Assembly (NCBI GenBank): GCA_025774805.1
Contig: JALGZR010000063.1
Coordinates: 1 to 53,585, forward strand
Direction: 5' to 3'
DNA: 53,585 nt
Source: a bacterium
GTDB taxonomy: Bacteria > ARS69
The notes beneath the pieces are model-generated. The model was not told the origin of the DNA, made no database searches, and was given only the letters and a program-made list of their open reading frames with translations. Below, in pieces: positions 3 to 42,585 of this stretch (position 1 is its first letter; the number at the start of each line of letters is the position of its first letter). The position numbers and the translations under genes were made by a program.

Positions 3-221
3 ACCGCATCAGACAAGATCATGTGCCTCACCTGCCACCGTGCCCACGCGTCGTCGGCTCCCGATGCCGGACGCTGGGACTTCAACGTGACGCTGCTGCA
101 TGAGGACGGAGACGAATCGGGCTCCTACGAGATTCCGGATCCGTACAGTTCCGTGAACCAGCGGTCTCTCTGCAACAAGTGCCACAAGAAGGACGTTGAC
201 GACCACATCGAGACCCCGTAG
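3..221 (+). CDS. Multiheme cytochrome c, C-terminal fragment
   Basis: The reading frame is open at the left window edge, so this is the 3' end of a longer gene. The visible 72 or so residues contain two CxxCH heme-binding motifs (CLTCH and CNKCH), the first followed by His-Ala-His spacing usual in multiheme cytochromes c. The protein would act outside the cytoplasmic membrane, where c-type hemes are attached. A strong hairpin terminator lies about 50 bp after the stop, so it closes its own transcript and is separate from the propeller operon that follows. Total heme number and family cannot be judged from this piece. Confidence 0.8.
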   Translation, partial: TASDKIMCLTCHRAHASSAPDAGRWDFNVTLLHEDGDESGSYEIPDPYSSVNQRSLCNKCHKKDVDDHIETP

Positions 222-334: not shown

Positions 335-405
335 CTGGCATGCATATCTCACCAGCCTCTGCTGCGGCAGCGGCAAAGCCGCGCCGGGTGAGGAATGCAG
401 GCTAG
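335..405. repeat. CTAG-ended inverted-repeat element, family 1, short copy
   Basis: The ends read GCATGCATATCTCACC on the left (338-353) and GGTGAGGAATGCAGGCTAG on the right (387-405), which are inverted copies of one another. The interior (ctgctgcggcagcgg) matches the interior of the full-length copy at 22202-22382 in reverse orientation, so this is a deletion derivative of about 70 bp. The right end contains the ATG used by the following gene. Confidence 0.8.
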
Positions 406-1792
406 GCGGATCGGCCGGGCCGTTCTCCTGGGTGCGCTCTGCGCGCTGGCGCATCCCGGGCCCGTAAGGTCCGCCGGTGAGGCCGACGGGGCGCAGATCG
501 TGGTGTACGTCGAGGTCCCCCCGAACGTCGTGGAGAAAACCCTCCTGCGACTCGCGAGCCTTACCCTCCAGGGGGCTTCCGGACGCGTGCCGATCGGGCT
601 CCTGGTCCGGGAGCTCGATTCGAGAGCGATCTCCGGACGTCAGGTCCGGCTCGCCGAGGAGGTCGTCCCTCCCGGTCTCTACGTGGACCTCGAGATGTGT
701 TTCGAGCTCATGGAAGCTCACCTCGGCCCGGCCGCGGTACGACCGGCGGTCCCGCCCGGCGGCGTGCGAATCCCGTTGAGCCTGGAGCTTTCGAACGGGG
801 GGGGAGCGCTGGTCGTGCTCCGCTGGTCTCCGGAGGCGATCGATCCGGAAGAGGAGTTTCATCGGCCGAGACTCGAGGTCGCGGATCCCGAAGTCCCGCC
901 CCTCGGATCTCTCGCCTTCGTGACGAATGAAGGGTCCGACAACGTGTCCGTCGTCGACCGGTTCTCCCAAAAGATCGTGGACGTCATCCGGGTGGGAGAG
1001 GGACCGCGGGGTATCACCGCCTCTCGGAGAGAACAGTGGCTCTACGTGGTCAACTCCTCTTCGAACGATCTCACGGTGATCGACGCGCGAACGCGCAGGA
1101 CGATCAAGAGAGCGACCTTGACGTTCGGCGACGAGCCGATTCGGGTGGCCCTGTCGCCGGACGAGAGCGAGCTCTATGTGCTCAACCGCGGCTCCAACAT
1201 GCTCTCCGTTCTCGACGCCCGCTCCCTCCAGGAGTCCTCGCGAATCGTGGTCGGAGAGGGCCCGCGGGCGATGGCGGTGGATCCCGTCACGGGATTCATC
1301 TACGTCGCGAGCGAGCTGTCCCGGACCGTCTTGATCGTCGATCCGGGGTCGGAGGAGACGGTGGCCTCGCTGTCCGTGGAGGTCTCCCCCGCGGAGATCC
1401 TTCTCGATGCCACGAACCGGCGGCTCTACGTATCCGGCGCCGATCAGCGGAAGCTGTCGATCGTCGATATCGAGACGTTGGAGACGGAGGAGAGGATGAA
1501 TCTCTGCTCTCCGGCCGTCGGTCTGGCGTACAATCCTCGATCGCGTCAGCTGTACGCGTCGCTGGAGGACTGTCGCGAGCTCGCCATTCTCAGCACCGTA
1601 GGCGTCTTCGAGATCGGCTCGATCGGCCTGGACGATCCGCCCGGCCTGATCTCCCTCGATCCGGAGTACGGACAACTGCTCACGATCCTGCCGACGGCCG
1701 GCGAACTGGCGTTTTACAGCGTCAACAGCAAGAGGCTCACCGGTATCGCCACTGTCGGCAAGCGTCCCCACATGGTCGTCGTTCCGAGATAG
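395..1792 (+). CDS. Secreted YVTN/NHL-type beta-propeller protein
   Basis: A 465-residue protein with an Arg-containing start and hydrophobic signal sequence (residues 1-26, ending PVRSAG). Residues about 30-160 form a domain I do not recognise. From about 170 on there are repeated blades of the YVTN/NHL kind, such as LAFVTNEGSDNVSVVD, LYVVNSSSNDLTVID and LYVLNRGSNMLSVLD. Such propellers are scaffolds rather than enzymes. The gene stops 2 bp before the outer-membrane barrel gene, so the two are surely co-transcribed, and it heads the cytochrome operon. The start codon at 395 lies inside the right end of a repeat element (ATGCAGGCTAG), so the first three codons come from the element. No other well-placed start precedes the signal sequence. 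Confidence 0.88.
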   Translation: MQARRIGRAVLLGALCALAHPGPVRSAGEADGAQIVVYVEVPPNVVEKTLLRLASLTLQGASGRVPIGLLVRELDSRAISGRQVRLAEEVVPPGLYVDLEMCFELMEAHLGPAAVRPAVPPGGVRIPLSLELSNGGGALVVLRWSPEAIDPEEEFHRPRLEVADPEVPPLGSLAFVTNEGSDNVSVVDRFSQKIVDVIRVGEGPRGITASRREQWLYVVNSSSNDLTVIDARTRRTIKRATLTFGDEPIRVALSPDESELYVLNRGSNMLSVLDARSLQESSRIVVGEGPRAMAVDPVTGFIYVASELSRTVLIVDPGSEETVASLSVEVSPAEILLDATNRRLYVSGADQRKLSIVDIETLETEERMNLCSPAVGLAYNPRSRQLYASLEDCRELAILSTVGVFEIGSIGLDDPPGLISLDPEYGQLLTILPTAGELAFYSVNSKRLTGIATVGKRPHMVVVPR

Positions 1793-1794
1793 AG

Positions 1795-3894
1795 ATGGAC
1801 TTTCGCCCTCGCGTGTCACGGACAAGCCGATGGGCCTCGATCCCGGGAATCGTCCTGGGGGCGGTTCTGGCGACCCCCCGAATCGGCGAGACGATTCTCT
1901 CGCAGAATCTTCGGGGCAACGTGGACCTGGCCGCCGTTGAATCCGAAGTCGATGGGGTCGGTCAGAGCACTTTCCGTCAGGAGTATACGGCGCGCTGGAG
2001 TCGACGACTCGCTCCCTATGTCACCCTTCGCACCGCCTTTCGATACTTCAAGTTCGATCTCGATCGGGACCAGGCGACAGGTTTCTCGCGAGACGAGTAC
2101 CAACCGTCCGGGGAGCTGGCGTGGAATCACCCGCGGTTCGCTCTCAGTTCGAGCCTTCGGCGGCGGAGTGCGCGGCTCCACGAATCCTCCGGCCGGCGGA
2201 TCAATGATGACGTCTCGATTTCCCTACGATCACGGGATATCGACTACCCCACCGTGTCCCTTCGCTTGGACTGGGGTCATATCTACGATTCGGAGGACCA
2301 GCGCGACCGAGACATCCTCGATCAGAGGCTCCAGACCGCCGCGGATTACTCTTTTCGCGGGCAGACGATGGCCTACCGGTTCACTCGTCGCACGACGGAC
2401 AACGTCGTGACGAACGTCGACGCCTCGACGAACACCCATCTCCTCCGCTGGAACGGTACGGCCGCTCCCCATCACCGCATGCGACTCACGTCGAACTACA
2501 CGTTTTCTCATCGGTCCCGAACCCAGGAGACACCCCAGGAGGGCGGATTCCTGACCGTCCTGTCCGGTGCGACCGGCCTGTACGTAGAGGATTCCTCGAT
2601 CGACTTCGGCGAGCTCGACCGTGCTCCCGCTCTTACCGACGGTAACACGGAGGACCCTGCAGTCCCGAGAATCGACATCGGAGGAGCTCTCGGGGATCGG
2701 AACCTGGGACTCGATCTCGCCTTCGTGAGAGAAGTGAGTACGCTCCATCTCTACGTCGACCGCCCGTCGGGCACGCAGCCGACCTGGAAAATCCTCTCTT
2801 CAAGCGACAACGTCTTCTGGCAGCTCTGGACGGCGAACCCCGCCGTCGAGTTCAACGCCGGACCGAGCCGGTACGAGATCTCCTTCGAATCCACGAGCAC
2901 GCGCTTCATCAAGGTCGTGAAGGGGGGCGTGAACGAGGTGCCCGAGGTCCTGGTCACGGAGCTCGAGGCGCTCGTTCAGGTCGAGGAGCGGGAGAAAGTC
3001 ACGCGAAAGGGAAGTACCCACTTCGTCGATGCCGGTGCCACCTACAGGGTCTCCGAAGCAATGCTCTCGACCGCCGACGTATCGTACGAGAAGGATTTCT
3101 CGGACAGTCCGGACGGAGGCCGGGACCGCGGCGACTACGTCCTCGGCACGAGATATCAGCAATCCCCGGTGGTCTTTCACCACATACGGTGGCAGCAGGG
3201 TTTCCAGTCCCTCGGCGGGCCGCTCGAAAACCTGACGAACCGATCCCTGGCGTATTCTCTCCTTGTCACACCGATCGAAACCCTGGACATTACGGCGAGT
3301 GCGACCTCCCGGTGGGAGGACACCGGAGACCTCCAGACGGATCGCATCCACACGGCGCTCGTACAGCTCACGGGGAATCCCCTGATCGGGATCAACATGT
3401 CCACGGAGGTCTCCCGGACGCGGAGGGTCCAGTTGATCCTCGGCACTCGTGACGATGTCTGGACCTACCGGTTTTCCGTGGACGGAACGGTGACGCGCTC
3501 CCTGGAGATGGCCCTGACTTACCGGCACCAGCGGATCACGATCAATCCGGGGTCCGACTTTCGCCGGCGCAGTCAATACACCGTCGACTTGAATTATCGC
3601 CTGACCCGGACGATATTCATGAGAGGCTCGTACAACCTTCTCGCCGAGGAGACGAACAGGGTAACTCAAGAATACTTCATGGGCTGGAATGCGACGCCGA
3701 AGCTCCGCCTCAGCGCGCTGGCATCCTTCACCGACCCGGGGGCGGACCGGGTGACCGAAAGATACAACGCGAACCTGACCTATGATCTCGGTCGTCGAAC
3801 GACCTTCTACTCTACGTATGCGACGTCCGACTTCACCGAAATCGGTGGAACGGAGACGACGTCGTTTCAAGCCGGTATGAGAACGGGGTTCTGA
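1795..3894 (+). CDS. Outer-membrane beta-barrel protein of the cytochrome operon
   Basis: The 699-residue protein begins with Arg-rich MDFRPRVSRTSRW and a short hydrophobic stretch typical of a signal peptide. The body is rich in alternating amphipathic strands with many Tyr, Arg and Thr, and it ends in ...MRTGF; a C-terminal Phe is the usual outer-membrane barrel signature. Residues about 290-400 look like a discoidin-type (F5/8) insertion, with LHLYVD, WQLW and TRFIKVV. Start chosen at ATG 1795, two bases after the upstream stop; the frame is open further upstream but that part is antisense-like noise over the propeller gene. In this context the barrel probably forms the sheath through which electrons or cytochromes cross the outer membrane (inference). 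Confidence 0.85.
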   Translation: MDFRPRVSRTSRWASIPGIVLGAVLATPRIGETILSQNLRGNVDLAAVESEVDGVGQSTFRQEYTARWSRRLAPYVTLRTAFRYFKFDLDRDQATGFSRDEYQPSGELAWNHPRFALSSSLRRRSARLHESSGRRINDDVSISLRSRDIDYPTVSLRLDWGHIYDSEDQRDRDILDQRLQTAADYSFRGQTMAYRFTRRTTDNVVTNVDASTNTHLLRWNGTAAPHHRMRLTSNYTFSHRSRTQETPQEGGFLTVLSGATGLYVEDSSIDFGELDRAPALTDGNTEDPAVPRIDIGGALGDRNLGLDLAFVREVSTLHLYVDRPSGTQPTWKILSSSDNVFWQLWTANPAVEFNAGPSRYEISFESTSTRFIKVVKGGVNEVPEVLVTELEALVQVEEREKVTRKGSTHFVDAGATYRVSEAMLSTADVSYEKDFSDSPDGGRDRGDYVLGTRYQQSPVVFHHIRWQQGFQSLGGPLENLTNRSLAYSLLVTPIETLDITASATSRWEDTGDLQTDRIHTALVQLTGNPLIGINMSTEVSRTRRVQLILGTRDDVWTYRFSVDGTVTRSLEMALTYRHQRITINPGSDFRRRSQYTVDLNYRLTRTIFMRGSYNLLAEETNRVTQEYFMGWNATPKLRLSALASFTDPGADRVTERYNANLTYDLGRRTTFYSTYATSDFTEIGGTETTSFQAGMRTGF

Positions 3895-3898
3895 GGCC

Positions 3899-4483
3899 GT
3901 GCGGTTCTTCTCGAGGATGTCGGTCGGAGCAACGATCTGGCTCGCCGTTGCCGATCTTCTCGCGGGCTGTTCCGGTATGGGCGCGACCACGTTCCTTCAC
4001 CGGGACTTCAACTTCGGTTTCATCGAAAGGGTTGCGGTCGTTCCTTTCGAAAACCTGACACGAGATCAAGGGGCCGGATTTCGGACCACCCGGTACTTCG
4101 TGTCGGAGCTCCTGGCCGCGGAAGCGTTCGACGTCGTGGAGCCCGGTGAGGTCGCGCGTGCCCTGGAGAAGCATGGAGAGGTTCGAACCGCCCAGCTGAC
4201 GCAGGCTCAGGTGATCGAGATCGGGAAGGACCTGAATGTCCAGGGCATCATTCTGGGATCGATCAGCGAGTCGACGACCACGCGAAGTGGATCAGGGAAC
4301 TTCAGCGTCGTCACGTTGGTCGTTCGAATGCTCGAGACGGAAAAGGGCACGACGGTCTGGTCCACCACGCACACGGAGGGGGGTCGGGGGTTCTGGTCCG
4401 CGCTCTTCGGGACGGGCGGCAAGTCCCTGAGTGAAGTCACCCGGCAATGTATCGAAAGGAGTGTGAAGACGCTTATCAAATGA
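3899..4483 (+). CDS. CsgG/GNA1162-like envelope lipoprotein
   Basis: A 194-residue protein starting with GTG four bases after the barrel gene. A hydrophobic segment ends in the lipobox LLAGC, so it should be lipidated. The following IERVAVVPFENLTRD...FVSELLAAEAFDVVEP is the alpha/beta fold shared by TolB N-terminal, CsgG, FlgO and GNA1162-like proteins, which assemble at the outer membrane. The last codons overlap the next gene by ATGA, so translation is coupled to a two-domain relative. Likely role: assembly or anchoring of the exported cytochrome system. The exact family is not certain. Confidence 0.82.
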   Translation: MRFFSRMSVGATIWLAVADLLAGCSGMGATTFLHRDFNFGFIERVAVVPFENLTRDQGAGFRTTRYFVSELLAAEAFDVVEPGEVARALEKHGEVRTAQLTQAQVIEIGKDLNVQGIILGSISESTTTRSGSGNFSVVTLVVRMLETEKGTTVWSTTHTEGGRGFWSALFGTGGKSLSEVTRQCIERSVKTLIK

Positions 4484-6129
4484 GGGCGCCGACGATTCCG
4501 TGGGACAGACGAGTGCAAGTTCTCGTCGTGGCAGTGGCGATGGGAGGGGCCCCGCTCCCGGCCGCCGATGCGGGCGGAGGTCTGGGCCAACTGGACCGTG
4601 AGGAGGCCAAGTTGGGAGTCCTTCTCTTTCCCAACCTCACGGGCACGAGCCGGGCCGTGGAAACGATCATGCCCCACATCTACGAGGAGCTCGACTCCCG
4701 AGGAGTCGTCTATACGGACCACGCGACCCTGCGCCCGACGCTTCGAAAGCACCGGATTCGCTTCGGAGGAGGCATTGGGGCCGAGGACGCTCGTTATATC
4801 CAAAGCGAGGCGGGCGTGACGTACCTGCTTCTGGGATCCCTCGACATGTTCAAAACGGAGGACAACCCGGAGGTTGCGGTGTCCGTCCGCCTTCTCGAGA
4901 TCGAGCGAATGAGTGTCTTCGCGGGCGCGAGCGCGGCGGCCACCGGTGAGGACTTTGCCGGCCTCTTCGGAGTCGGCCGGGTGACTTCCGTGGAGGAACT
5001 GGCGGGTCGCGTGGTGGCCCGGGTCTTCGAGCATCTCGATGAGGTGGTGGCGGAGATCGAGCGGAATCGCGAGCGCCGCGGCGGGCGACCGAAGGTCGCG
5101 GTCGTTTCTCTCGACGACATGTCCGGCACGGCGCACGCAGGTGACATCATGTCGAGTATCCTCGTTTCCGAGCTGGTAAGGGCCGGCTTCTCTGTCGTGG
5201 AGCCCGGAATGGTGACCGAGGTCTTCCGAAAGAACCGCAGGGTTTTCCGAGGCGGTATCGACTATCCCACCCTCCGGCGGCTCAGAGAGGATCTGAAGAT
5301 CGACTTCCTTCTTACGGGCGAGGTGGAGACGTTCCGGGCCGCCGTCGGGGCGATCGAGCACGCGCGGCCTTCGCTCGCCTTCGGAGCTCGGTTGATCGCG
5401 GGGCGAGACGGACGGTTGCTGATGACGTTCGACGAATCGCGAAACGGTGACGACTCCGAGACGGTATTCCGCCTGGGGCGGTTCCATTCGCTGGGTCGTT
5501 TGGCCCAAGACTCCGCCCGGAAACTCGTCCGGGAGGTCGAGAAGAGAGCGCAACGGGAGATCGAGGAAAGCCACATTCAAGAGTCCACGCCGGAAGAGAC
5601 CGTGTCGCAGGAGCCGACAGAAGGCACCGGGGAGGGCACCGGCGAAGTCGCGGGGATGGAGGGGAACGGAGACGTCGCCGTCGCGCCGGAGGAGCCGACG
5701 CAAGTCACGAGCGAAGGCGCCGGCGTGGTGGAGAGGGCCGCGGACTCTCCGGTCACTCCACCGGGGGCTGCCCCTCGCCCGCACACCGGGACTCAGGTGT
5801 CGGAGCCGGTTTCCCCGGTACCGGCACGGATCGGGGAGGATGGCTTCTCCGCGCCTTCCGCTTCCGCTCCGGGGTTCGCCGTCCATGTCAGCTCTTGGCG
5901 GAGAGAGGACTCCGCGCGCCGTGAAGCGGCGGCGCTCGAGGCGGTCGGGTATCCCGCGATTTGGCGGAGGGTCCTGGTCCCCGAGAAGGGATCCTGGTAT
6001 CGAGTCTATGCCGGCCCGTACGGCGATCGCCAGACCGCCCGGAACGCCGCCCGGGAGATCAAGTCCACCGGATTGAGCGAGTACGTACAGGTCCATCGCC
6101 TTCCGGCGGAGGAGGACGAGGGCGGGTGA
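4480..6129 (+). CDS. FlgO/CsgG-like protein with C-terminal SPOR domain
   Basis: Taking ATG 4480 (ATGA overlap with the upstream stop) gives 549 residues; an earlier in-frame ATG at 4447 would put extra residues in front of a clean signal peptide (RRVQVLVVAVAMGGAPLPAADA). Two successive domains start with LGVLLFPNLTGTSRAVE and KVAVVSLDDMSGTAHAGD; both have the FlgO/TolB-N pattern of hydrophobic strand, helix and 'VVEPG...R'. A long Glu/Pro/Thr/Gly linker (about residues 365-465) leads to a SPOR domain (FAVHVSSWRRED...WYRVYAGPYGDRQTA), which in other proteins binds denuded peptidoglycan. The protein may tie the outer-membrane complex to the cell wall. It is followed 2 bp later by the prolyl-isomerase gene. 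Confidence 0.85.
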   Translation: MRAPTIPWDRRVQVLVVAVAMGGAPLPAADAGGGLGQLDREEAKLGVLLFPNLTGTSRAVETIMPHIYEELDSRGVVYTDHATLRPTLRKHRIRFGGGIGAEDARYIQSEAGVTYLLLGSLDMFKTEDNPEVAVSVRLLEIERMSVFAGASAAATGEDFAGLFGVGRVTSVEELAGRVVARVFEHLDEVVAEIERNRERRGGRPKVAVVSLDDMSGTAHAGDIMSSILVSELVRAGFSVVEPGMVTEVFRKNRRVFRGGIDYPTLRRLREDLKIDFLLTGEVETFRAAVGAIEHARPSLAFGARLIAGRDGRLLMTFDESRNGDDSETVFRLGRFHSLGRLAQDSARKLVREVEKRAQREIEESHIQESTPEETVSQEPTEGTGEGTGEVAGMEGNGDVAVAPEEPTQVTSEGAGVVERAADSPVTPPGAAPRPHTGTQVSEPVSPVPARIGEDGFSAPSASAPGFAVHVSSWRREDSARREAAALEAVGYPAIWRRVLVPEKGSWYRVYAGPYGDRQTARNAAREIKSTGLSEYVQVHRLPAEEDEGG

Positions 6130-6131
6130 AA

Positions 6132-8009
6132 ATGGGAGAATCGATGAATCTCGGGAATGCGGTTGAGCACGTGGAGCGCGTGGTCGATCGCAAGTCGGTT
6201 ACGGAGCGAGGAGGTCGGAATCGTCGATACGATCCGGGGGACCCGGGAGCGGGGCGAGGCGACCAAGACCGTCGATCCCGACCGGGCGGAGATCGCGGGG
6301 CTCGACGTCCCTGGAGAGAGCGCGGGCGAGCCGGCGGGCACGCGACGGCGGCCTGGACCCTCCTGATTGCCGGGACTCTGGTCTTCGGCGTGCCGCCTTC
6401 CGAAGACGGGGGAAGAGTCGAGGCCCGGCCCGCCGAGAATCCCGAGGCCATCGTCCTGGCCCGCGTCAATGGCGAATCCATCACGAGCCGAGATCTGGAC
6501 GCCCTTCTCATTCGGTCTCACACGACCATGGGAGACCGAGAGCGAGCGACATTCGATTTCCGGAAGCTTCTCGACCGGTTGGTCCACGATCGACTCCTCA
6601 TCCAGCAGGCCCGAGCGCTGGGACTGGATCAGGACGAGGAGCTCCTGGCGCAGCTCTGGGACCGTCGGGTCGGCTACGCGACCCGTGAGTATGTGCGCAC
6701 GACGTTCGAGGCCCCGGACTCGGTCGCCGAATCGGAGATTCGAGTCGAATTCGAAGAGTTTTACTGGAAGATTCAGTTACGCCAGATCTCGGTTCCCACG
6801 AAGGAAGCGGCCCAAGACCTCGTCGGGAGAATTCGGAAGGGTGCATCCATGGACAGTCTGGCCAAGGAGGTGTCCGTGGACTCGCGCCGCTACCGGGGCG
6901 GCCTCCACAATCTCGTGCACTGGGTCGACGTGGATCCGGTACTGCGGGGCCCGTCCCGCGACCTCGCCTCCGGAGACCTTTCCGAGCCGTTCCCGTATCG
7001 CAACGTGTACGCCTTCGTGCGCGTGGAGGAGAGACTTCCCCCCGATGACGCCGAATACCAGGACCGCCGACGAGGTATCGAGAAGGCTCTTCTCTCGAAG
7101 GAGAAGAAGGCGGCCTGGAGGCGATTCCTCCAGGGGCTCGGCCGGCGGATTCCGGTCCGGGTCGACAGTCTCACCCTCGCGGAGATTGCCGCCGACTCCG
7201 CACTCGCGTTCACCGGAGAATTCCTGGTCGACTCCGATCGCCCCGTACTGACCGTGGACGGGGGACACACGGTCACCTCCTTCGAGCTCCGGAAGGAACT
7301 TTCTCACAATGCCATGCAAAGCGCCCGGACCCCTTTCGACACCCTTCTGGCGGAGGCAATCGAGAAGAAGCGCGAGGACCTTCTCCTCCTGCGGGCCGCG
7401 GAGGAGGACGGCTGGCTCGACAATGAGGCGGTTGTTGCGGAGTACGAGAAGGATCTCGAGCGGACCCTCATCGACGCGTATCTGACCGAGACCATCGTGC
7501 CTCAAATAGAGTTCCGTCGCTCGGAGTTCCAGGAATACTATGACTCTCATCTCGACGACTTTCGCGGACCGCCCCAGGTCCTGCTCGGAACCGTTCTCCT
7601 CGGTTCCAAAGCCGAGGCGGACGAGGTCGCGTCGAGACTCCGGGAGGGTGCGGACATCGGATTCCTCCGGAAGCAGTATTCGGCCCACGGGACCGAAGCG
7701 ATCGAGGACTCGAAGTGGGTCTCGGCCAGCATCTTCTCCGGTGAGATTCGAGATGCTCTGTCTCGCCTGGAAGTCGGACAATCCACCGACGCGTTCGAGG
7801 TGGCGACCGGCTGGATGGTGTTCAAGCTCAAGGATCGCCGGGCCGGCCCCCTGAAGAGCCTGGAGGAGGCCGACATGCAGATTCGTGAGATCATGTATCG
7901 GAAGATCTTCAAGCGGCTGCTCGACGAGCACCTGGAATTGCTGAGGGACAGGTCCGACTTGGAACTTTACGGTGAGAGAATCGATGAGTACTTTGGATCG
8001 AACCCCTGA
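6132..8009 (+). CDS. SurA/PrsA-like periplasmic peptidyl-prolyl isomerase
   Basis: About 625 residues from ATG 6132. A long basic N-terminus precedes one hydrophobic segment (AAWTLLIAGTLVFGV, about residue 75), which acts as a signal or membrane anchor. Then comes a SurA-type N-terminal region (ARVNGESITSRDLDALL, RLVHDRLLIQQAR) and two parvulin-like blocks: IQLRQISVPTKEAAQDLVGRI at about residue 215 and QVLLGTVLLGSKAEADEVASR at about 485. Such chaperones hold unfolded outer-membrane or secreted proteins. Lying between the envelope genes and two giant cytochromes, it is probably the dedicated folding factor for them or for the barrel. The unusually long charged N-terminus could mean that the true start is further in. 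Confidence 0.87.
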   Translation: MGESMNLGNAVEHVERVVDRKSVTERGGRNRRYDPGDPGAGRGDQDRRSRPGGDRGARRPWRERGRAGGHATAAWTLLIAGTLVFGVPPSEDGGRVEARPAENPEAIVLARVNGESITSRDLDALLIRSHTTMGDRERATFDFRKLLDRLVHDRLLIQQARALGLDQDEELLAQLWDRRVGYATREYVRTTFEAPDSVAESEIRVEFEEFYWKIQLRQISVPTKEAAQDLVGRIRKGASMDSLAKEVSVDSRRYRGGLHNLVHWVDVDPVLRGPSRDLASGDLSEPFPYRNVYAFVRVEERLPPDDAEYQDRRRGIEKALLSKEKKAAWRRFLQGLGRRIPVRVDSLTLAEIAADSALAFTGEFLVDSDRPVLTVDGGHTVTSFELRKELSHNAMQSARTPFDTLLAEAIEKKREDLLLLRAAEEDGWLDNEAVVAEYEKDLERTLIDAYLTETIVPQIEFRRSEFQEYYDSHLDDFRGPPQVLLGTVLLGSKAEADEVASRLREGADIGFLRKQYSAHGTEAIEDSKWVSASIFSGEIRDALSRLEVGQSTDAFEVATGWMVFKLKDRRAGPLKSLEEADMQIREIMYRKIFKRLLDEHLELLRDRSDLELYGERIDEYFGSNP

Positions 8010-8017
8010 GCACAAAG

Positions 8018-9739
8018 ATGAGGGTGGGACGGGCTTCATTGCGATCGACGAAGCACAGCACAGCGTGCAAGGGGAAGTTTCCGCCACCCGGGCTCTTGTT
8101 GCTGGGGGTCCTCTTGTGTCTTGGCGGTGTGCTCGAGTGGCGGGAGTCATCCGCTCAGATCAAGCGCGGAAAGAGGTTCGAGGCGGCGGGCGAGTGCCAG
8201 AAGTGCCATGATCTGGAGGAGTTCCCGGGCGACCACAAGCACAAGCCCTTCGCGAAGAAGGAATGTGAGTCCTGCCACAAGCCTCACGGTCTGGTCGGCA
8301 CGCTTCGTCTGAGAAACGATGGCGCGGAGCTGTGCTTCGACTGTCACGACCGGGACGACCTCGGGCTGAACCGCTCGATCGTGCACGACCCCGCGAGCCG
8401 GGGACGGTGTCTCGATTGCCACGATCCCCACGCAACGTCCCACCCGAATCTCCTCACCGAGTCCTTGGAGGATCTCTGTTCGTCCTGCCACGGCACCGAC
8501 GGCTTCGACGCGGAGCACGTCCACGCGCCGATGGAGGAAGGATGCTTCTCCTGCCACGAAGTTCACGGCGGCGACCACGCCGGTCTTCTGAAGACGAGTG
8601 AGACTCAGCTCTGCAGTGACTGCCATGATCCCACGAAGCCGTCATTCGCATCGGCTCACGGCGGATTCCCGGTCGAACGAGCCGCGTGCGGGGAGTGCCA
8701 CTCCCCTCACTCGTCTCCCCACGAGAAGCTCTTGACCGTCTCCACCCACCCTCCCGTCCTCGATGCCGACTGCGAGGTCTGTCACGTTGCGCCCGACAGT
8801 CCCGCTCCGTTCGGCCTTCTCGCCGAGGATCCCGTCGGTCTCTGCATCGACTGTCACGACGAATCGGAGGTCGCGCCGGCCGGCGTCCACTCTCCGGTCG
8901 CCGATGGAGAGTGCCTGGGCTGTCACGGGCCCCACGGCTCCTCGCAGAAGGTTCTCCTGCGAAAGCCGGCCGGAGCACTCTGTCTCGAGTGTCACGATGA
9001 GATCGGCGGGGAGCTGATCAAGGCCTCGCGCCACGATCCCGCCCGGGAGGATTGCAGTCTCTGTCACGACGCCCACGGTATGGCGGACGACAAGCTCATC
9101 GCGGGGAGCGTGGACGATCTCTGCCTGGACTGCCACTCCGAAGTACGGGCGGAGTTCGAGAACACCACCGTTCACTCCGCGTTCGAAGACGGCGAGTGCC
9201 TGGACTGCCATGTCCCCCACGGTTCGGATCACGGCAATCTTACCACTTCCCCCCGGTTCGAGCTCTGTGGCGAGTGCCATGAGGATGCGGGCGGCTGGTT
9301 GGAGCACACGAGCGTCCACGTTCCGGCGAAGATCGGCCAGTGCAACGAATGCCACGCCCCGCACTCTTCAACGCACGCCGGTCTTTTGAGGAGCGAACAG
9401 AACGAGCTGTGCGCCGGGTGTCACGCCGGGATTCTCGATGAGGCCGGTCATGATGTCATTCATCCTCCCTTCGAAGAGAGGTCCTGCGACACCTGTCACA
9501 GCGCCCACGCGGCGGATCATCCGCATCTCATGCCGGAGGAGATGTCCGCGCTGTGTGCGACGTGCCACGACGACATCGCCGCCGAATCCGCTTCCAGTGT
9601 GAGTGGCCACCTTCCTGTCGCAGAAGGTCGCTGCACCGACTGTCACTCGCCGCACGCCGGCGCCCTCGAGGGTCTCCTCCTCGACGTGTCCGGAAGGCTC
9701 TGCTTCACCTGCCATAGGGGATTGCCTGGAGTGTCATGA
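8018..9739 (+). CDS. 22-heme cytochrome c (5' part of a frameshifted 26-heme gene)
   Basis: 573 residues with a signal anchor (PPPGLLLLGVLLCLGGVLEW) and 22 CxxCH motifs, from CQKCH to CFTCH, arranged as repeating pairs 'CxxCHxPH...HxxLL...LCxxCH' about every 20-25 residues. It would be an extracytoplasmic electron conductor; its hemes are too many for a simple shuttle. The frame ends abruptly after CHRGLPGVS, while the next frame continues with four more motifs up to 9992 and an ATGA overlap with the following gene. One repeat unit looks missing at the junction near 9715-9725. So this is probably the truncated or misassembled front of a 26-heme protein. Confidence 0.88.
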   Translation: MRVGRASLRSTKHSTACKGKFPPPGLLLLGVLLCLGGVLEWRESSAQIKRGKRFEAAGECQKCHDLEEFPGDHKHKPFAKKECESCHKPHGLVGTLRLRNDGAELCFDCHDRDDLGLNRSIVHDPASRGRCLDCHDPHATSHPNLLTESLEDLCSSCHGTDGFDAEHVHAPMEEGCFSCHEVHGGDHAGLLKTSETQLCSDCHDPTKPSFASAHGGFPVERAACGECHSPHSSPHEKLLTVSTHPPVLDADCEVCHVAPDSPAPFGLLAEDPVGLCIDCHDESEVAPAGVHSPVADGECLGCHGPHGSSQKVLLRKPAGALCLECHDEIGGELIKASRHDPAREDCSLCHDAHGMADDKLIAGSVDDLCLDCHSEVRAEFENTTVHSAFEDGECLDCHVPHGSDHGNLTTSPRFELCGECHEDAGGWLEHTSVHVPAKIGQCNECHAPHSSTHAGLLRSEQNELCAGCHAGILDEAGHDVIHPPFEERSCDTCHSAHAADHPHLMPEEMSALCATCHDDIAAESASSVSGHLPVAEGRCTDCHSPHAGALEGLLLDVSGRLCFTCHRGLPGVS

Positions 9740-9992
9740 TCCTCATTTCAGCGCCCATCCTCCCCTGTTGGCCGAAGCGGTTCCCGAGCAGTGTCTGTCA
9801 TGCCACGACGGCGACGACGAGGACTTTCGTGCCGCCCATCTCGGTCGGGCCGGCGATTCGATCGACTGCCGCAAGTGCCATGATCCCCACGTTTCGAGCG
9901 ATGAGGGGCTGATCAAGGCCGTCGGGCACGATCCGTTCGTCGAAAGCGCCTGCGACGTCTGTCATCCCGACGGGCAGGGAGAGGGGCCATGA
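9723..9992 (+). pseudogene. 3' fragment of the 26-heme cytochrome, out of frame
   Basis: In the +1 frame relative to the preceding gene, GDCLECHDPHFSAHPPLL continues the same repeat pattern and gives four heme motifs (CLECH, CLSCH, CRKCH, CDVCH) before a stop that overlaps the next start as ATGA. There is no start codon or signal peptide of its own. The junction falls between CFTCH and GDCLECH, where about 20 residues of the repeat would be expected, so a deletion not divisible by three (or an assembly collapse in this repetitive gene) fits better than a single-base error. Confidence 0.75.
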
Positions 9993-11209
9993 CACTGCGC
10001 TCGATCGCGCTTGCGGCGGGCCTCTGCCTCGCGTGGCCGTGTGGGACCGGCGCCGAACGCGTCGTGGTCGACGAGCCCGCGGTCTGCTACGAGTGTCATT
10101 CCGAGATCGAGAGCCTCGGTGCCGAGAAAAACGTTCACACCGCTTTCGAGGCCGGCACCTGTTCCGATTGCCACAACCCGCACGCGGCCAAGCACGCCGC
10201 CCTGCTCGACCGGGAGCTGGGCGATCTCTGTCTCTCCTGTCACGAAGACGTACGGGACGAGCTCGAGAGCGTCGCGACACACGTGCCCGTGCTCCGCGGA
10301 GAGTGTGGTCACTGTCATGACCCGCACGCATCGGGATTCCCGAACCAGTTGAGGAAGGAATCCATCGCCCTGTGTAGGGACTGTCATTCCACCGTGGACG
10401 ACTGGACCGCCCAGCCGGTGGTGCACCGTCCGGTGCGACGGGGGGAATGTCTCCGCTGCCACGCGGCGCACGGCTCTGACGCCGAGGGGCTTCTGTCCGA
10501 CGGCGTTCCGACTCTTTGCTTCCAATGTCACGAAGCGGGTACAGCTTTTGCGAGCGCCCACGGGGGGCGCTACATCACGAACTCAAACTGCACGGCGTGT
10601 CACGATCCCCACTCGGGATTTCTCCCCGGCCTGGTGCGCAGGAACCAGCACGCCCCGTTCGCCGGGGGAACGTGCACCTCCTGTCACAGTGAAGGAAGCA
10701 GCGCCGGCACATTCGCACTCTCGACGGACGTTAAGGTCCTATGCATGAAGTGTCATCGGGGAGTCGAGGAATACGGCAAGACCGAGTTCCACGCTCACTT
10801 GGACACCGAGGAGTCCTGTCTGGCGTGTCACAACCCGCATGCGTCGAACGCGGAAGCCCTTCTAGCTGCGGAGCAGCGCGTCCTCTGCATGCGGTGTCAT
10901 TTCAATGAGGAGGGTCGCCGAGACAAGGAAACCTACGTGACTCATGGCGGAATGGACTGTTCGAATTGCCACACCCCCCACGGGGCGGAGAATCCCAAGT
11001 ACTTAGCGACCCTCGACGTGGACCTCTGTTCGAGGTGCCACGAGAGAGCCCATCGCGTCTCTCATCCGATCGGTCCCGACATCATCGATCCCCGCACCGA
11101 GATGCCAATGACCTGCCTGAGCTGTCATCGGTTGCACGGCTCGGAGTTCGAGGACTACCTTGCCCTCGACCCCTCCATGGATCTCTGCATCCAGTGTCAC
11201 CAGCGCTAG
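9989..11209 (+). CDS. 16-heme cytochrome c
   Basis: 406 residues with a cleavable signal peptide (MTLRSIALAAGLCLAWPCGTGAE). I count 16 CxxCH motifs from CYECH to the final CIQCHQR, in the same paired pattern as the preceding gene (CSDCHNPHAA, CGHCHDPHAS, CLACHNPHAS), so the two are paralogues. Translational coupling by ATGA with the 26-heme gene implies co-production. The role is probably periplasmic or extracellular electron conduction. The TAG stop (11207-11209) is supplied by the CTAG end of a repeat element that begins exactly there; the last heme motif is only two residues from the end, so little or nothing has been lost. Confidence 0.93.
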   Translation: MTLRSIALAAGLCLAWPCGTGAERVVVDEPAVCYECHSEIESLGAEKNVHTAFEAGTCSDCHNPHAAKHAALLDRELGDLCLSCHEDVRDELESVATHVPVLRGECGHCHDPHASGFPNQLRKESIALCRDCHSTVDDWTAQPVVHRPVRRGECLRCHAAHGSDAEGLLSDGVPTLCFQCHEAGTAFASAHGGRYITNSNCTACHDPHSGFLPGLVRRNQHAPFAGGTCTSCHSEGSSAGTFALSTDVKVLCMKCHRGVEEYGKTEFHAHLDTEESCLACHNPHASNAEALLAAEQRVLCMRCHFNEEGRRDKETYVTHGGMDCSNCHTPHGAENPKYLATLDVDLCSRCHERAHRVSHPIGPDIIDPRTEMPMTCLSCHRLHGSEFEDYLALDPSMDLCIQCHQR

Positions 11210-11385
11210 TCTGCATTTCTCACCCGACTCGCCACGAGACGGCGGATCGTCGTGTCTGGCGAGGAGACGGGGCGCTTTCGCCCGAGGCGGGGCCGTAGCC
11301 CCGTCGGAGGGCGGAGGCGCGGCAACGGCGGGCCAAGTGCGGCTTGGCGTTGCTTCCGCGGAGACCGGTGAGGAATGCCGGCTAG
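11206..11385. repeat. CTAG-ended inverted-repeat element, family 1, full copy
   Basis: 180 bp bounded by CTAG on both sides (11206-11209 and 11382-11385). The ends are CTAGTCTGCATTTCTCACC and GGTGAGGAATGCCGGCTAG. The interior carries the hairpin cggggccgtagccccg common to the full copies. It fills the whole gap between two convergent cytochrome genes and provides both of their TAG stops. Confidence 0.88.
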
Positions 11386-14285
11386 TGGTAGCCGAACAGC
11401 ATCGAGTAGATGATCAGGCCGATGAGGGTGACGCCGATTCCCAGGAACGCGAATCCGAACACCCGCACCGTTCGCTGCCACCTCTTCGCCACGTTCGCGG
11501 CCACGAGACGCTTTCGCAACTGGCCCCTTCGTTTCAGCTCCTCGTACTCCCGGGGCCTCTCTCTCCGGTACTCGTCCACCGACACCAGACCCGTGAACAC
11601 GACGGTGTCCATCGGGAACGCCTCGGGTCTCAGGTGCGTGTTGAAGAAGTGGATGGTGAAGATAAAACCGACCGCGAGCAGGGCCTCGTCGCTGTGCACG
11701 ATCGTCGCGACGTTGATCACCCAACCGGGAATGAATCGAGTGAAGAACTCGGGAAACCAGAGCATGAGACCGGAAACGCCGATGATGGCCACGCCCCAGA
11801 ACACCGCGAGGTAGTCAAACTTCTCCCAGTAAGTCCACCGCCCGTACTCGGGGCGGGAACCCGCTCCGAAGAACCAGCAGACCGATGACAGAAAATCCTT
11901 CACGTCCCGTCGGTTGAACATGAGGGAATCTCTGCCGAAGACGAGCTCCCTCAGCCCGATCCTCCGACGACGCTTGTGGCGGATCAACGTGAACAGGTGA
12001 AAGAAGAAGTAGCCGAAGGTCACGACCGCGGCCGTCCGGTGGATGGTGCCCGCCTTCATCACTCCGCCGAGGAGGTCCGCGAGGGTGGCGGCCCACGGCA
12101 TGGCGGAGAACTTGAGCATCATGCCGGTGAGGGCCAGCGACAGGAAGCTGACGATGACGAAGAGGTGCGTGATCCGATGGGCGAGATCGAAGCGACGGAT
12201 GTAGTACTGCTTCCTGCTCGCCGCCTGCGCCCGGTGTCGTGCCTTCTCCCGCATCATCTGGAACGACCGTGGGATCCACAAAAGGGTATGGATCCCGAAA
12301 AAGCTGAAGACCGCGATCAGGAGCGAAGTCATCGCCCAATACGTCCAGTAGAGAATCGGATACTTCACGGGGTCGTGGTGGGTCGCGTGGGTCAGGTATC
12401 CCGTGAACCGCTCGTTCGCGTCCTCGTGGCACTTCGCACAAGTCTCGACGATGTTTCGGAACCCTACGGTGGAGTTCGGATCGGTGCCCGCGAGGATCCC
12501 GTGGGCGCCGTGACAATCCGAGCACTTGGCCGCGCCCAGATACCCGAGCTGGTAAGCCTTGCCGTGCATGGTCGTCAGATACGTCTCGGAGAGATCTCGG
12601 TGGCACGAGCCGCACTGGTGCGTCACCTCGGTGAGGAAGGCGTCCTGCTCAACCTCTCCGATCGTGTGCGAGGAGTGACAGTCGGCGCAGTTCGGCAGCT
12701 CCTCGGCCTCCTCGCCATCCCTCGAGAAGTGGACGCTCTTGATGAATTCCTTGTAGATGCCTCGGTGGCACGACGCGCACGTCGCCGGAAGATTCTTACG
12801 GTGCACGGTGGAACGCTCGTCGGTGTGCTTCAGCACCTGATGAGAGCCGTGGCAGTCGATGCAGACGGCGCTTGGCAGGAGACCCTTTTCCTCCAATCCC
12901 CGGCCGTGGACGCTCGTCGAGTAGTCCGACAACGCGGACGTTTCCGTGAGAACGGCGACTTGCGATGCCGATCCCTCTTCTCGGTGACAATCACCGCACA
13001 GCGTGGGCACCGACGCTCGAAACGTCGGTGACGCCTCGTCGTCGTGCTTAATCACTCCGTGACTGCCGTGACAGGTCGTGCAATAGGGAACCTCGGGAAT
13101 TCCCTCGGCGCGAGCGACGCCGTGGCCGCTGATGTCGTACTCCTCGGAGATCCTCGCGTGGCAATTGGAGCAGTCGGCGAGTTCGGAGGGCTCGCACGGG
13201 CGCCTCAGGCGGGGGTCGACGTCGGTGTGGCACTTGACGCAGGGGATGTTCTCGTGGGTGGAGTCCCCGAGCTCCTCCTTCGAGACGAAGAGGGAGATCG
13301 TGTCACCGTCGGCGACCCGGTGAAGGTCGGGATCCTCGTGACACCGGAGGCAATCGCGATCGGAGATCGTGATCGCGATGGTCTCCTTCCGGACTCGGTG
13401 GGGCAGGTGGCAGTCCGTGCAGGCGGGGATTGCGCCCGGTTGCTTCTCCCAAAGCTCGCCGCGAATGACCTGGGCGTGCACATCTTCGATCCGCGTGTGG
13501 CAGACCATGCACTGAATCGCGATGTTTCCAGGAGAGATCGTGGCTTCCGGATTCGTGTGGGGCAAGATCTTGTGGCTGCTGTGACAGTCCGTACAGGTTG
13601 CGGTGACCGTGAGCCCCTTCTTGAAGAGCCCCTCGCCGTGAATGCTCAGGCTGTAGTTGTCGATGATGTTGTGCTCGGCGATGTCGTACACCCGGGCGAC
13701 GGGCGCGCCCTCCCGGTGGCACTCCCCACAGAGGTAGGGCTCGTTCATTTTGAAGGCCGGTGACGCCGGGTCGCGGGGAGGACGAATGTCGTGTTTCCCG
13801 TGGCAGTCGCCGCAGCGGGGGGCATACGGTGCACCGCGGTTCAGCGCCTGACCGTGACTGCTGGCGTCGAAATCGACTTGGGCATCGTCATGACAGGCGC
13901 CACAGAAGACCGGCTCCAGAAACTCCTCGTGAGGGAATTCCTCGACGTCGGCATCCGAGTGACAGTCGATGCAATCGAGATCCGCGTGGATGGAGGCGGA
14001 GAAGACTTCCGGATCGACGTGGAGAGAGACGGTGACTCCACCGCGCTCCGTATCGAAGTCCGGATCGTTGTGACAATCCAGACACGTCTCATTGTCGGAG
14101 GCGAAGGCCGCCCCGCCACCGAGAAGGACCGAGGCCAGAGCCAAAACCGCCAGGGGGCGCGGGCGTCCCGCTCGGGGAACTTCGGAATCGAAAGTTCGGG
14201 TGGTCGGTCCTGGCCTGCACCTCTCACCGCGCTCGTCGCGAAGCTGTGGATCGTCGTGGCCGGCGAGGAGATGGGGTGCCTTCAT
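11382..14285 (-). CDS. 19-heme cytochrome c fused to membrane cytochrome b (CbcL-like)
   Basis: A large fusion. The N-terminal part has a signal sequence (PLAVLALASVLLGGGAAFAS) and 19 CxxCH motifs from CLDCH to CAKCH, many followed by H-x-I/V as in NapC/NrfH-related and octaheme proteins. The last about 340 residues are membrane-spanning, with His pairs in DLAHRITH, GTIHRTAAV, FFFHLFTLIRH and IVHSDEALL/IHFFNTH, as in formate dehydrogenase gamma/thiosulfate reductase cytochrome b. Known relatives such as Geobacter CbcL take electrons from menaquinol to periplasmic hemes; this is probably the same job. The start is doubtful: a repeat element sits at the 5' end, the only nearby ATG (14285) lies inside it, and a TTG at 14144 just before the signal sequence is an alternative. 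The stop is also repeat-derived. Confidence 0.88.
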   Translation of the reverse strand: MKAPHLLAGHDDPQLRDERGERCRPGPTTRTFDSEVPRAGRPRPLAVLALASVLLGGGAAFASDNETCLDCHNDPDFDTERGGVTVSLHVDPEVFSASIHADLDCIDCHSDADVEEFPHEEFLEPVFCGACHDDAQVDFDASSHGQALNRGAPYAPRCGDCHGKHDIRPPRDPASPAFKMNEPYLCGECHREGAPVARVYDIAEHNIIDNYSLSIHGEGLFKKGLTVTATCTDCHSSHKILPHTNPEATISPGNIAIQCMVCHTRIEDVHAQVIRGELWEKQPGAIPACTDCHLPHRVRKETIAITISDRDCLRCHEDPDLHRVADGDTISLFVSKEELGDSTHENIPCVKCHTDVDPRLRRPCEPSELADCSNCHARISEEYDISGHGVARAEGIPEVPYCTTCHGSHGVIKHDDEASPTFRASVPTLCGDCHREEGSASQVAVLTETSALSDYSTSVHGRGLEEKGLLPSAVCIDCHGSHQVLKHTDERSTVHRKNLPATCASCHRGIYKEFIKSVHFSRDGEEAEELPNCADCHSSHTIGEVEQDAFLTEVTHQCGSCHRDLSETYLTTMHGKAYQLGYLGAAKCSDCHGAHGILAGTDPNSTVGFRNIVETCAKCHEDANERFTGYLTHATHHDPVKYPILYWTYWAMTSLLIAVFSFFGIHTLLWIPRSFQMMREKARHRAQAASRKQYYIRRFDLAHRITHLFVIVSFLSLALTGMMLKFSAMPWAATLADLLGGVMKAGTIHRTAAVVTFGYFFFHLFTLIRHKRRRRIGLRELVFGRDSLMFNRRDVKDFLSSVCWFFGAGSRPEYGRWTYWEKFDYLAVFWGVAIIGVSGLMLWFPEFFTRFIPGWVINVATIVHSDEALLAVGFIFTIHFFNTHLRPEAFPMDTVVFTGLVSVDEYRRERPREYEELKRRGQLRKRLVAANVAKRWQRTVRVFGFAFLGIGVTLIGLIIYSMLFGYH

Positions 14286-14629: not shown

Positions 14630-15274
14630 CTAGGTCTCGGCCTCCGCTTCTGCCTCGGCGTCCGCCGCTTCCGCCTCGCCTTCCGCCGCCTCCGGGATCG
14701 GATGGGGGATTTTCTGAATCCGCTCCTCGTAGACGAACTCCTTGAAGAAGCTGTTGCCCTCCGGCGTGTGGCACTCCACGCAGACTTCCTCGGTGGGTTG
14801 GATCAGACCGAGGCTGGCGCCGTCGACCTCACCCGCGCGGATCGCCGTCATCGTCTTCTTCTTCATGTAGCTCTTACCGGGGCCGTGGCAACTCTCGCAG
14901 GAGACGCCCTCTTCCAGTGTGATCTTCTGGTTCTCGAGGTCGTCCATCACTGCAAAGGCCGTGGCGTGGCACTTGAGGCACTCGGGTGCGGTCTGGGGAT
15001 TCTCGATGCCCCTCTCCTTCGCTTCCGCCAAGGCAGCGTCGGTCGCCAACGTCTCGAACGCCTTCGCGTGACCGGTCTTTTCCCAGAGCCCGAACTGCTC
15101 CCCCTGTTTTGCACTCTTGTGGCACATCTTGCACTTCGTCACACCGACGTACTCGAACGTCTCCTCTTCGGCGCCGAGAACTTCGGTGCTGGAGGGACCG
15201 ATCAGGAAGATGCCGCTGGAAAGCAGGAAGAAGAGCGCGATGACCAGGGATCGCGCGAGTCGGCCGTCGTGCAT
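14630..15274 (-). CDS. Tetraheme cytochrome c554-type protein
   Basis: 214 residues. ATG 15274 is preferred over ATG 15280 because AAGGAG stands 7 bp before it. After a signal peptide (SLVIALFFLLSSGIFLIG) come YVGVTKCKMCH, APECLKCHATAF, GVSCESCHGPGKSYM and EEVCVECHTPEGN: the order and spacing of a cytochrome c554 domain. Such proteins serve as periplasmic electron carriers. The tail (about 30 residues) is almost only Ala and Glu and is probably a flexible acidic patch. It stands upstream of the 19-heme/cytochrome b gene on the same strand and may pass electrons from it. An FNR-like palindrome lies about 90 bp upstream. Confidence 0.9.
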   Translation of the reverse strand: MHDGRLARSLVIALFFLLSSGIFLIGPSSTEVLGAEEETFEYVGVTKCKMCHKSAKQGEQFGLWEKTGHAKAFETLATDAALAEAKERGIENPQTAPECLKCHATAFAVMDDLENQKITLEEGVSCESCHGPGKSYMKKKTMTAIRAGEVDGASLGLIQPTEEVCVECHTPEGNSFFKEFVYEERIQKIPHPIPEAAEGEAEAADAEAEAEAET

Positions 15275-15364
15275 CACCATTCTCCTTGAGGGCCGTGACC
15301 GGCCCGTCGTGTGAGCCCACCGGAGGGGTGTCGGGGCCCGGACCTCAATTGCGGGCCCACTGAT

Positions 15365-32544: not shown

Positions 32545-33528
32545 CTAGGGTGTCGTACCTCCCATGCGCGTGATGCCGTCCTGGAGCAGCGCCCTGGCGT
32601 AGTCCGCGTTGTGAACCCCCAGGCTCTGGTCCTCATGAGCCACGTACAGCCAGTTCCACAATGCGATCGCCTGATTCTCGGGCGCCTCCGTCACGATCGG
32701 ATGACCGTCCTCGGAGTTCTCGTTGATCAGCCCGGCGGCCAGCAGCAACGCCCCGAGATCGTTCCCAAGGCTATCGATCTCGGTCTGCACGCCGTTGTAG
32801 TCGAAATCCGTGGCGTCGGGGTGACACCGCTCGCAGGTCTCCTCGTCAGGCTCGAAGGTGTGGTTTCTCCCCTCGCCCATGTGGCAGGTTACACAAGTGT
32901 TCTCCGCAGCCCCGTAGTGCCCGGACAGGCTGCCGGTCACACCGGGCCCCCCACCTACGCCGAGCAGCATCGCGCTCTGCGGCCCGTGGTGCGGGCCCCA
33001 GTGTAAGGAGATCCCCGAGATCACGCCGCTAACGGCGTCGGGAATGACCCGACGGGGCTGGTGGCAGTTGACGCAGAGGTTGCCTTCGCCTCCGTCGAAG
33101 GTCACGCCATCCATGGCGTAGAAGTCCACGGGCTCTTCGGTTCGCAGTCCGAAGTCGGTGCCCGTGAAGGTCTCGTGGATCATGTGGCACGTACGGCAAT
33201 CCTGACGCGTCGGCTCAGGATCGCCGTCGTCCACGGACCCCGGATCCAGGCCGGCCGCAAGCATCTCCACGAAGGCGCTCCCGGAGTGGCATCCGGCGCA
33301 GCTCGAGCGGGTTCCCCGCACGTAGGCATCGCCCATGCCGTGCGCCGACTCGGCCCACTGGGTCGCCTTCCCGGTGATCTGATCGCTGGAGTCGTGGCAC
33401 TCCGCGCATGACAGCGGCATTCCCTCCGACGATCCGTCGTCCACCAGGTTGATGGTGCGATCGCACCCCTGAGCCCACACCAGCAGAGCAACCGCTGTGA
33501 GCGCCAGAAGCGTTCTCTGGAATGACAT
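32545..33528 (-). CDS. Hexaheme c-type cytochrome lipoprotein
   Basis: 327 residues from ATG 33528 (GGAG upstream). The signal sequence SFQRTLLALTAVALLVWAQGC ends in a lipobox Cys, so it is a lipoprotein. Six CxxCH motifs: CAECH, CAGCH, CRTCH, CVNCH, CVTCH and CERCH, with extra His residues (HMIHETF, SLHWGPHHGPQ) that may serve as distal ligands. The last about 80 residues contain no heme; ALWNWLYVAHEDQSLGVHNADYARALL is typical of periplasmic multiheme lipoproteins. As the third gene after a periplasmic decaheme protein and an MtrB-like barrel, it is the likely outer-face terminal cytochrome of the conduit, in the place of MtrC. Confidence 0.9.
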   Translation of the reverse strand: MSFQRTLLALTAVALLVWAQGCDRTINLVDDGSSEGMPLSCAECHDSSDQITGKATQWAESAHGMGDAYVRGTRSSCAGCHSGSAFVEMLAAGLDPGSVDDGDPEPTRQDCRTCHMIHETFTGTDFGLRTEEPVDFYAMDGVTFDGGEGNLCVNCHQPRRVIPDAVSGVISGISLHWGPHHGPQSAMLLGVGGGPGVTGSLSGHYGAAENTCVTCHMGEGRNHTFEPDEETCERCHPDATDFDYNGVQTEIDSLGNDLGALLLAAGLINENSEDGHPIVTEAPENQAIALWNWLYVAHEDQSLGVHNADYARALLQDGITRMGGTTP

Positions 33529-33550
33529 CTCCCGGCCTCCTCCTTTGAGC

Positions 33551-35122: not shown

Positions 35123-35134
35123 TCGGACACCGCC

Positions 35135-36112: not shown

Positions 36113-36159
36113 GACATGCCCCCCACGTAGAGACTCACGAGAAGTGACCGGACCTTGCG

Positions 36160-36220
36160 GACAACTCACTCAGGGGACTTATCGCCAATTCTGAGTTGTC
36201 GATTCAGTCTTTTTCAGTCT
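36160..36220 (-). promoter_or_regulatory. Inverted and direct repeats upstream of the conduit operon
   Basis: GACAACTCA (36160-36168) and TGAGTTGTC (36191-36199) are perfect 9-bp inverted arms 22 bp apart. Just beyond, TTCAGTCTT is repeated at 10-bp spacing (36202-36210, 36212-36220), one helical turn, as in sites of some response regulators. Both lie 48-108 bp before the decaheme gene start. Confidence 0.4.
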
Positions 36221-42401: not shown

Positions 42402-42585
42402 CTAGCCCGGACTGTTCATGAAGATCGTCGCGAGATTGCGGAGACGCCCACCGGACGGGCACCCGCAGGGGTTTGGACCCGAGGCGTATCTCAACGATAC
42501 GTTGCAGGGTACGGACCCCGAGGACGCTCGTCCGGTGGCGCGTATCCGCGATCGCAGCAGATCCTTCATGAACAGTCCGGGCTAG
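42402..42585. repeat. CTAG-ended inverted-repeat element, family 2, with 12-bp flanking duplication
   Basis: 184 bp with perfect 22-bp terminal inverted repeats that begin CTAGCCCGGACTGTTCATG. The sequence GCCGAGCGATCT stands directly on both sides (42389-42400 and 42587-42598), one base from each CTAG, as expected of a target duplication. The right copy and the CTAG form the last codons and TAG stop of the BatD/E gene. The interior differs from family 1. Confidence 0.88.

Follow-up and report, generated by a model that had tools for sequence, protein, structure and literature searches.

A probable osc-type operon with an OmcS-like head gene, PelC-like lipoproteins and giant cytochromes in a little-known bacterial phylum

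A tight row of seven genes, preceded by the end of an OmcS-like gene, was found at one end of the window (i.e., the whole stretch of DNA analysed, 53,585 nucleotides, which is the entire contig C262 of the genome G000, 5.1 Mb in size and 96% complete). This locus corresponds to the osc operon, the omcS companion of Geobacter, as judged by gene order, heme counts and secondary accounts of that operon, not by alignment with the GSU proteins. It is quite probably an operon of osc type, i.e., an OmcS-like hexaheme cytochrome polymerising outside the cell plus the set of proteins that folds, exports and wires it. The host phylum, a small and little-known group of uncultured members, is represented by only five genomes in the collection, and the locus appears to be known machinery in a new phylum, with a few informative twists.

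Organization of the locus

The seven genes, located at 395-11209, are all carried by the forward strand in an operon-like arrangement. They are separated by 2, 4, 2 and 8 bp or overlap by 37 and 4 bp, in agreement with the tight spacing claimed by an earlier note made from the sequence alone. The features of the locus are as follows.

3-221, forward strand: 3' end (72 codons and the stop) of the gene of an OmcS-like hexaheme cytochrome, OscC equivalent (84% identity to a Calditrichota OmcS-like protein)
395-1792, forward strand: YVTN/lactonase-type beta-propeller, 465 aa, OscD equivalent (PF10282, E 3e-13; TIGR02276)
1795-3894, forward strand: outer-membrane beta-barrel, 699 aa, OscE equivalent (weak Porin_4 match; family conserved in order in relatives)
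2632-2973, forward strand: F5/8 type C (discoidin/CBM32) domain, an insert of the barrel spanning about residues 280-393 (the family profile matches CBM32/F5_8C structures)
3899-4483, forward strand: PelC/LpoB-type outer-membrane lipoprotein, 194 aa, OscF equivalent, initially called CsgG-like (lipobox LAGC; PelC profile match)
4447-6129, forward strand: FlgO/PelC-like protein with a C-terminal SPOR domain, OscG equivalent (SPOR, E 9e-12; FlgO, E 1e-4, just under the cut-off)
6132-8009, forward strand, start at 6132 or 6144: periplasmic SurA/PpiD-like peptidyl-prolyl isomerase (PPIase), OscH equivalent (Rotamase_2, E 2e-18; SurA_N)
8018-9739, forward strand: giant cytochrome, first 22 hemes (22 CXXCH), OscI equivalent, cut short by an in-frame stop that follows a net 53-bp loss
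9717-9992 (in ORF 9603-9992), forward strand: giant cytochrome, last 4 hemes in a different frame (4 CXXCH; homology to the C-termini of intact 26-heme proteins)
9989-11209, forward strand: 16-heme cytochrome, OscJ equivalent (16 CXXCH)

The earlier note was mostly right about this gene content. Its propeller, barrel, lipoprotein, FlgO/SPOR protein, PPIase and 16-heme cytochrome were all recovered, but its 26-heme gene is not a single frame, and the OmcS-like gene end at 3-221 had been missed.

An OmcS-like gene opens the operon

When the same genome was searched with the Calditrichota OmcS-like protein, the C-terminal 70 residues of the query aligned with positions 3-212 of the window (84% identity). 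The N-terminal part of the protein was found at the edge of another contig, C38, whose end shares 114 identical overlapping bases with the start of the window. The joined protein contains six CXXCH motifs and its mature part begins FHDAGVAHCNGCHTMHNS. It is shorter than OmcS: counted from its mature-like start region, it has 352 aa versus 407 in mature OmcS. The Calditrichota homolog itself matches the OmcS structure 6EF8 with an E value of 4e-40. The position of the two halves of the gene, joined to this match, indicates that the operon starts with an OmcS-family filament subunit. The gene is preceded on C38 by an NHL gene. The N-terminal histidine of the OmcS motif CHTMH is conserved in the head gene (as the His of CHTMHN); it presumably corresponds to the inter-subunit heme ligand of OmcS (His16). 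In OmcS filaments, a histidine ligand crosses the subunit interface (PMC12307469).

The filament subunit is most probably, to judge from these sequences, the OmcS-like hexaheme encoded just upstream and not the giant cytochrome. The earlier note had proposed that the whole set exports and assembles a giant cytochrome, perhaps a filament. The direction of this interpretation was right, i.e., a set devoted to the assembly, export and wiring of a cytochrome filament, whereas the identity given to the filament was wrong. That the 26-heme and 16-heme cytochromes are themselves the exported filament or surface conductor now looks improbable. Their size, the largest among the cytochromes of the operon, their encoding together with export-like genes and their visible signal peptides speak for this reading. 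However, in the loci read completely on their upstream side, the present operon among them, an OmcS-family subunit stands at the head, and the proteins encoded by GSU2495 and GSU2494 are periplasmic according to a published table. Furthermore, the relationship of the giant proteins to MtrA, their invariant length and their natural fusion (see below) would better suit rods that form a discrete bridge.

The same genome holds a second OmcS-like N-terminus at a contig edge, that of C16, close to a fragment of a 4Fe-4S protein that looks by eye like a reductive dehalogenase (L047, 738-1070, reverse strand). A cytochrome with 18 CXXCH (L046, 9129-11429, reverse strand) is encoded a few kilobases upstream of the NHL and OmcS-like genes.

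Conservation in other phyla

Scanning contigs with two peptide patterns led to two further loci. The sister genome DHS20C21, labelled Gemmatimonadota, carries genes encoding an NHL protein, an OmcS-like protein, a barrel, a lipoprotein, a FlgO-like protein, a PPIase and an intact 26-heme cytochrome. The other locus belongs to the Calditrichota MAG CLD4, which harbours, like G179, the complete row N-C-D-E-F-G-H-I-J (N being the NHL gene). Near-complete sets are present in DHS20C21, G159, G172 and G046. Of 290 genomes searched with a profile of the barrel, almost all of them from other phyla, seven gave a match, and four of these (G159, G172, G179 and G046) possess the same gene set. Homologs of the propeller occupy the equivalent position in CLD4, G046 and G179; likewise, the PPIase shares 47% and 31% identity with the PPIases found at the equivalent position in relatives.

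The use of the 16-heme gene as an anchor gave orthologs in 14 of the 290 genomes (E <= 1e-60), distributed over eleven families. The 26-heme gene adjoins the 16-heme gene in all loci with a flank that was read but one, G002 (i.e., DHS20C21), where the 16-heme gene is at the contig edge. Lipoprotein and/or PPIase genes are located upstream in most of these loci, and only cytochromes and an NHL gene were seen in the stretch read in G013, G028 and G175. None of the plasmids searched at E 1e-30 carries a 16-heme gene.

A gene order that recurs in several phyla argues for a general machinery. The neighbourhood survey that the earlier note had suggested as a check of gene co-occurrence recovered this order in other phyla through two independent anchors. 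The genome is rich in cytochromes, and the PPIase, propeller, porin and LpoB-like lipoprotein families are each common, so that unrelated envelope genes and cytochromes could have come to cluster by chance. Nevertheless, such a cluster would not be expected to show equal order in several phyla from two independent anchors; the survey leads to its rejection, and its probability is negligible.

A looser variant was observed in G111 (L040, 5342-11419), where genes of a barrel, a PelC-like lipoprotein, an NHL protein and a cytochrome with about 10 hemes are found together, without the 26/16-heme pair.

A putative PelBC-like exit

The lipoprotein had been called CsgG-like, a label that holds only at the level of the fold, the closest known structures being PelC and FlgT. 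A profile built from 11 OscF homologs matches PelC (E 8e-12), GNA1162 (1e-6) and LpoB (0.02), and CsgG is absent from its sequence matches. In the same way, the lipoprotein of the window has no match to PF03783 (CsgG) at E 0.01; this domain is matched by 4 of the 11 family members. The AlphaFold model of OscF has a pLDDT of 62 and was used only jointly with the sequence profiles. Its top Foldseek match is the PelC dodecamer, and the Z values obtained with VIA-align are 12.8 for PelC, 12.9 for FlgT and about 9.6 for CsgG. The mature chain is about 171 aa long and its loops are short in this model of middling confidence, which would leave little room for two transmembrane beta-hairpins. A CsgG-type pore was rejected for the lipoprotein, PelC being closer by both profile and fold.

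The FlgO-like protein shows a comparable relationship, since the C-terminal half of its family profile matches PelC (E 6e-8). The earlier note regarded the lipoprotein and the FlgO/SPOR protein as new for such a locus. This does not stand for the lipoprotein and the FlgO-like part, whose equivalents have this position in every one of the better-covered loci examined; furthermore, the Geobacter OscE, OscF and OscG located there were already proposed as OmcS secretion genes, according to PMC13194489. It may stand for the SPOR domain, which was not found in five other OscG homologs. From these sequences, this domain looks peculiar to the present lineage, being carried by only one of the six proteins checked.

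The barrel encoded at 1795-3894 did not match PF11854 (MtrB/PioB) in a Pfam search. Its F5/8C insert is the most conserved part of the barrel family and includes most of the invariant columns; in the Calditrichota barrel homolog, PF00754 is above the cut-off. The AlphaFold model of the barrel, built from three sequences, has a pLDDT of 36 and was set aside for strand count and fold search.

PelC is a dodecamer that belongs to the outer-membrane exporter PelBC (titles of PDB entries). The presence of a barrel gene beside genes of PelC-like proteins suggests a PelBC-like gate, and the analogy with the Pel system suggests an exit that would be PelBC-like rather than a CsgG pore. The likeness with the PelB-PelC exopolysaccharide exporter consists of a PelC-like lipoprotein gene beside an outer-membrane barrel gene. 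The differences concern the cargo and the barrel, which in the window belongs to another family, is a separate protein and carries an F5/8C insert. The relation to PelC nevertheless provides a concrete and testable model of the exit. The OscE barrel and a ring of PelC-like OscF and OscG would form this exit in the outer membrane, OscH would hold the heme-loaded subunit in an export-competent state and the propellers could aid assembly.

The giant cytochromes

The 26-heme gene is broken in the window, and the count of 26 given by the earlier note is right only as a total, i.e., 22 CXXCH, a stop, then 4 in another frame. Hemes 22 and 23 are 22 nt apart in the window, whereas relatives have 25 codons at this interval, so that 53 nt net are missing. 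All 26 heme sites are present although the frame is broken in this contig, and the gene is unbroken in DHS20C21 and CLD4. The intact 26-heme homolog matches MtrA (6R2Q) with an E value of 2e-16, and OscJ is 49% identical to its Calditrichota homolog. By homology, the 26-heme and 16-heme proteins can be classified as wires related to MtrA. They differ from MtrAB (6R2Q) by their 26 and 16 hemes versus 10, and by a barrel that is not matched by MtrB_PioB.

In the loci where it could be counted, the number of hemes is fixed. OscI has 26 heme sites in all ten unfused loci read, as in the broken copy of the window; two OscI loci show 25 CXXCH, with a CX4CH at the missing position. OscJ has 16 hemes in 10 of 10 proteins read. 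The heme spacings also follow one register, in which a 28-residue step recurs at the same two intervals. In three genomes (G013, G029 and G198), OscI and OscJ are fused in a single open frame of 42 hemes, in which the OscJ part begins just past the expected end of the signal peptide.

L066, 1600-4734: 42-heme fusion
L067, 12981-16091: 42-heme fusion
L070, 13045-16866: 42-heme fusion

Such a natural fusion is direct evidence that OscI and OscJ work together. The tree of OscI and OscJ is saturated, with long branches and half of its forks open, and for this reason only the group of the window, CLD4 and G159 and the fusion pair G013-G198 were retained. The grouping of G013 with G198 supports at least one fusion event, the placement of G029 being open.

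The fixed numbers of 26 and 16 hemes and the 42-heme fusions suggest a wire of fixed length. The invariance and the three fusions speak for an end-to-end function in which length matters. The two MtrA-like rods, placed end to end, would take up electrons at the inner membrane and deliver them to the filament base, and we infer that they could behave as a single rod whose length is set by the envelope. A more precise model can be put forward tentatively: OscI and OscJ could form an envelope-spanning rod of fixed length with 42 hemes, plugged into the base of an OmcS-type filament that leaves through a PelBC-like gate (OscE with rings of OscF/OscG), the heme number being a ruler for the width of the envelope. 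At about 8-9 A per heme, as in MtrA and OmcS, such a rod would measure roughly 30-37 nm. If this model is true, the wire, the exit it takes and its power lead would all be built by one operon. Giant cytochromes that span the envelope would supply the link that is missing between respiratory chain and filament.

Comparison with known systems

The osc operon of Geobacter sulfurreducens corresponds to GSU2501-GSU2493 (Shen et al. 2025, doi 10.1016/j.chembiol.2024.12.013), as cited in PMC13194489 and PMC12977616. In the latter (2026), the eight-gene block downstream of GSU2501 is tied to the maturation and secretion of OmcS. According to PMC13194489 (2026), the roles proposed after Shen 2025 are folding for OscH, secretion for OscE, OscF and OscG, and morphology for OscD. 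GSU2495 is a 26-heme cytochrome (PMC12977616); it is listed, like GSU2494, as periplasmic in the published table mentioned above. The two operons share in equal order an OmcS-like hexaheme (OscC), a propeller (OscD), OscE/F/G, a PPIase (OscH), a 26-heme (OscI) and a 16-heme (OscJ) cytochrome; the three genes at 1795-6129 are matched to OscE, OscF and OscG by position, not by comparison with the Geobacter sequences. The locus of the window differs by its phylum, by the SPOR domain of OscG and by an OscI broken in the assembly. The resemblance to Geobacter loci of OmcS type, pointed out by the earlier note, is borne out by the OmcS-like head gene, the conserved order and the matching heme counts.

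The locus also corresponds to the operon with 26-heme and 16-heme cytochromes, PPIase and propeller described in ANME partners, Geobacter and others by Skennerton 2017 (PMC5539420). The SEEP-SRB1 operon shares this core of four genes. However, no porin homolog was reported there from a search with known porins (PMC5539420), whereas the operon of the window includes a barrel and PelC-like lipoproteins. A literature search that combined Calditrichota with OmcS nanowires found nothing. The physiological or respiratory role of OmcS filaments is disputed (PMC11077965), which limits the functional claims that can be made about the locus.

Porin-cytochrome conduits and neighbouring genes

The locus probably corresponds to the Oet conduit as well. 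Murali 2023 (PMC10553843) described OetABI, a porin conduit found with homologs of OmcS and OmcX. Both systems have a barrel and large cytochromes alongside OmcS-like genes, but OetABI is read as a porin conduit that includes the lipoprotein OetB as its extracellular cytochrome, whereas the giant cytochrome lacks a lipobox in the clade of the window. In line with the Oet reading, the locus could encode a pure electron conduit, i.e., an MtrAB-like porin filled by the giant cytochromes, the OmcS-like filament leaving the cell elsewhere. The relationship of the 26-heme protein to MtrA, the linkage of the barrel and the giant cytochromes in one operon and the interpretation of such a set by Murali 2023 (PMC10553843) argue for this alternative, which is nonetheless rather unlikely. 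PelC-like ring proteins and a dedicated PPIase are better suited to export, and the barrel of the operon has no MtrB/PioB match in Pfam, whereas another barrel of the window does match this family, beside a decaheme MtrA-like gene. This second barrel belongs to one of the cytochrome-containing features found downstream of the operon.

11382-14171, reverse strand: 19-heme protein fused to a cytochrome-b561-type membrane domain (PF01292, multiheme families, 19 CXXCH)
32548-36169, reverse strand: MtrABC-like porin-cytochrome set with a decaheme cytochrome (MtrA 6R2Q, E 3e-20), an MtrB/PioB-like barrel and a hexaheme lipoprotein

The second barrel (33554-35122, 523 aa) matches PF11854 with an E value of 1e-4, just below the cut-off. 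Its location beside genes of a decaheme cytochrome and a hexaheme lipoprotein suggests that the organism seems to have a separate porin-cytochrome conduit.

The 19-heme/b561 gene is convergent to the operon and lies outside its conserved part; its product is a candidate quinol dehydrogenase of the inner membrane, according to its predicted domains. A gene encoding a tetraheme cytochrome c554-like protein (14633-15280, reverse strand) adjoins it. Further downstream, the reverse strand of the contig carries, at 42585-49919, genes for BatD and DUF58 that belong to a Bat cluster of the aerotolerance type.
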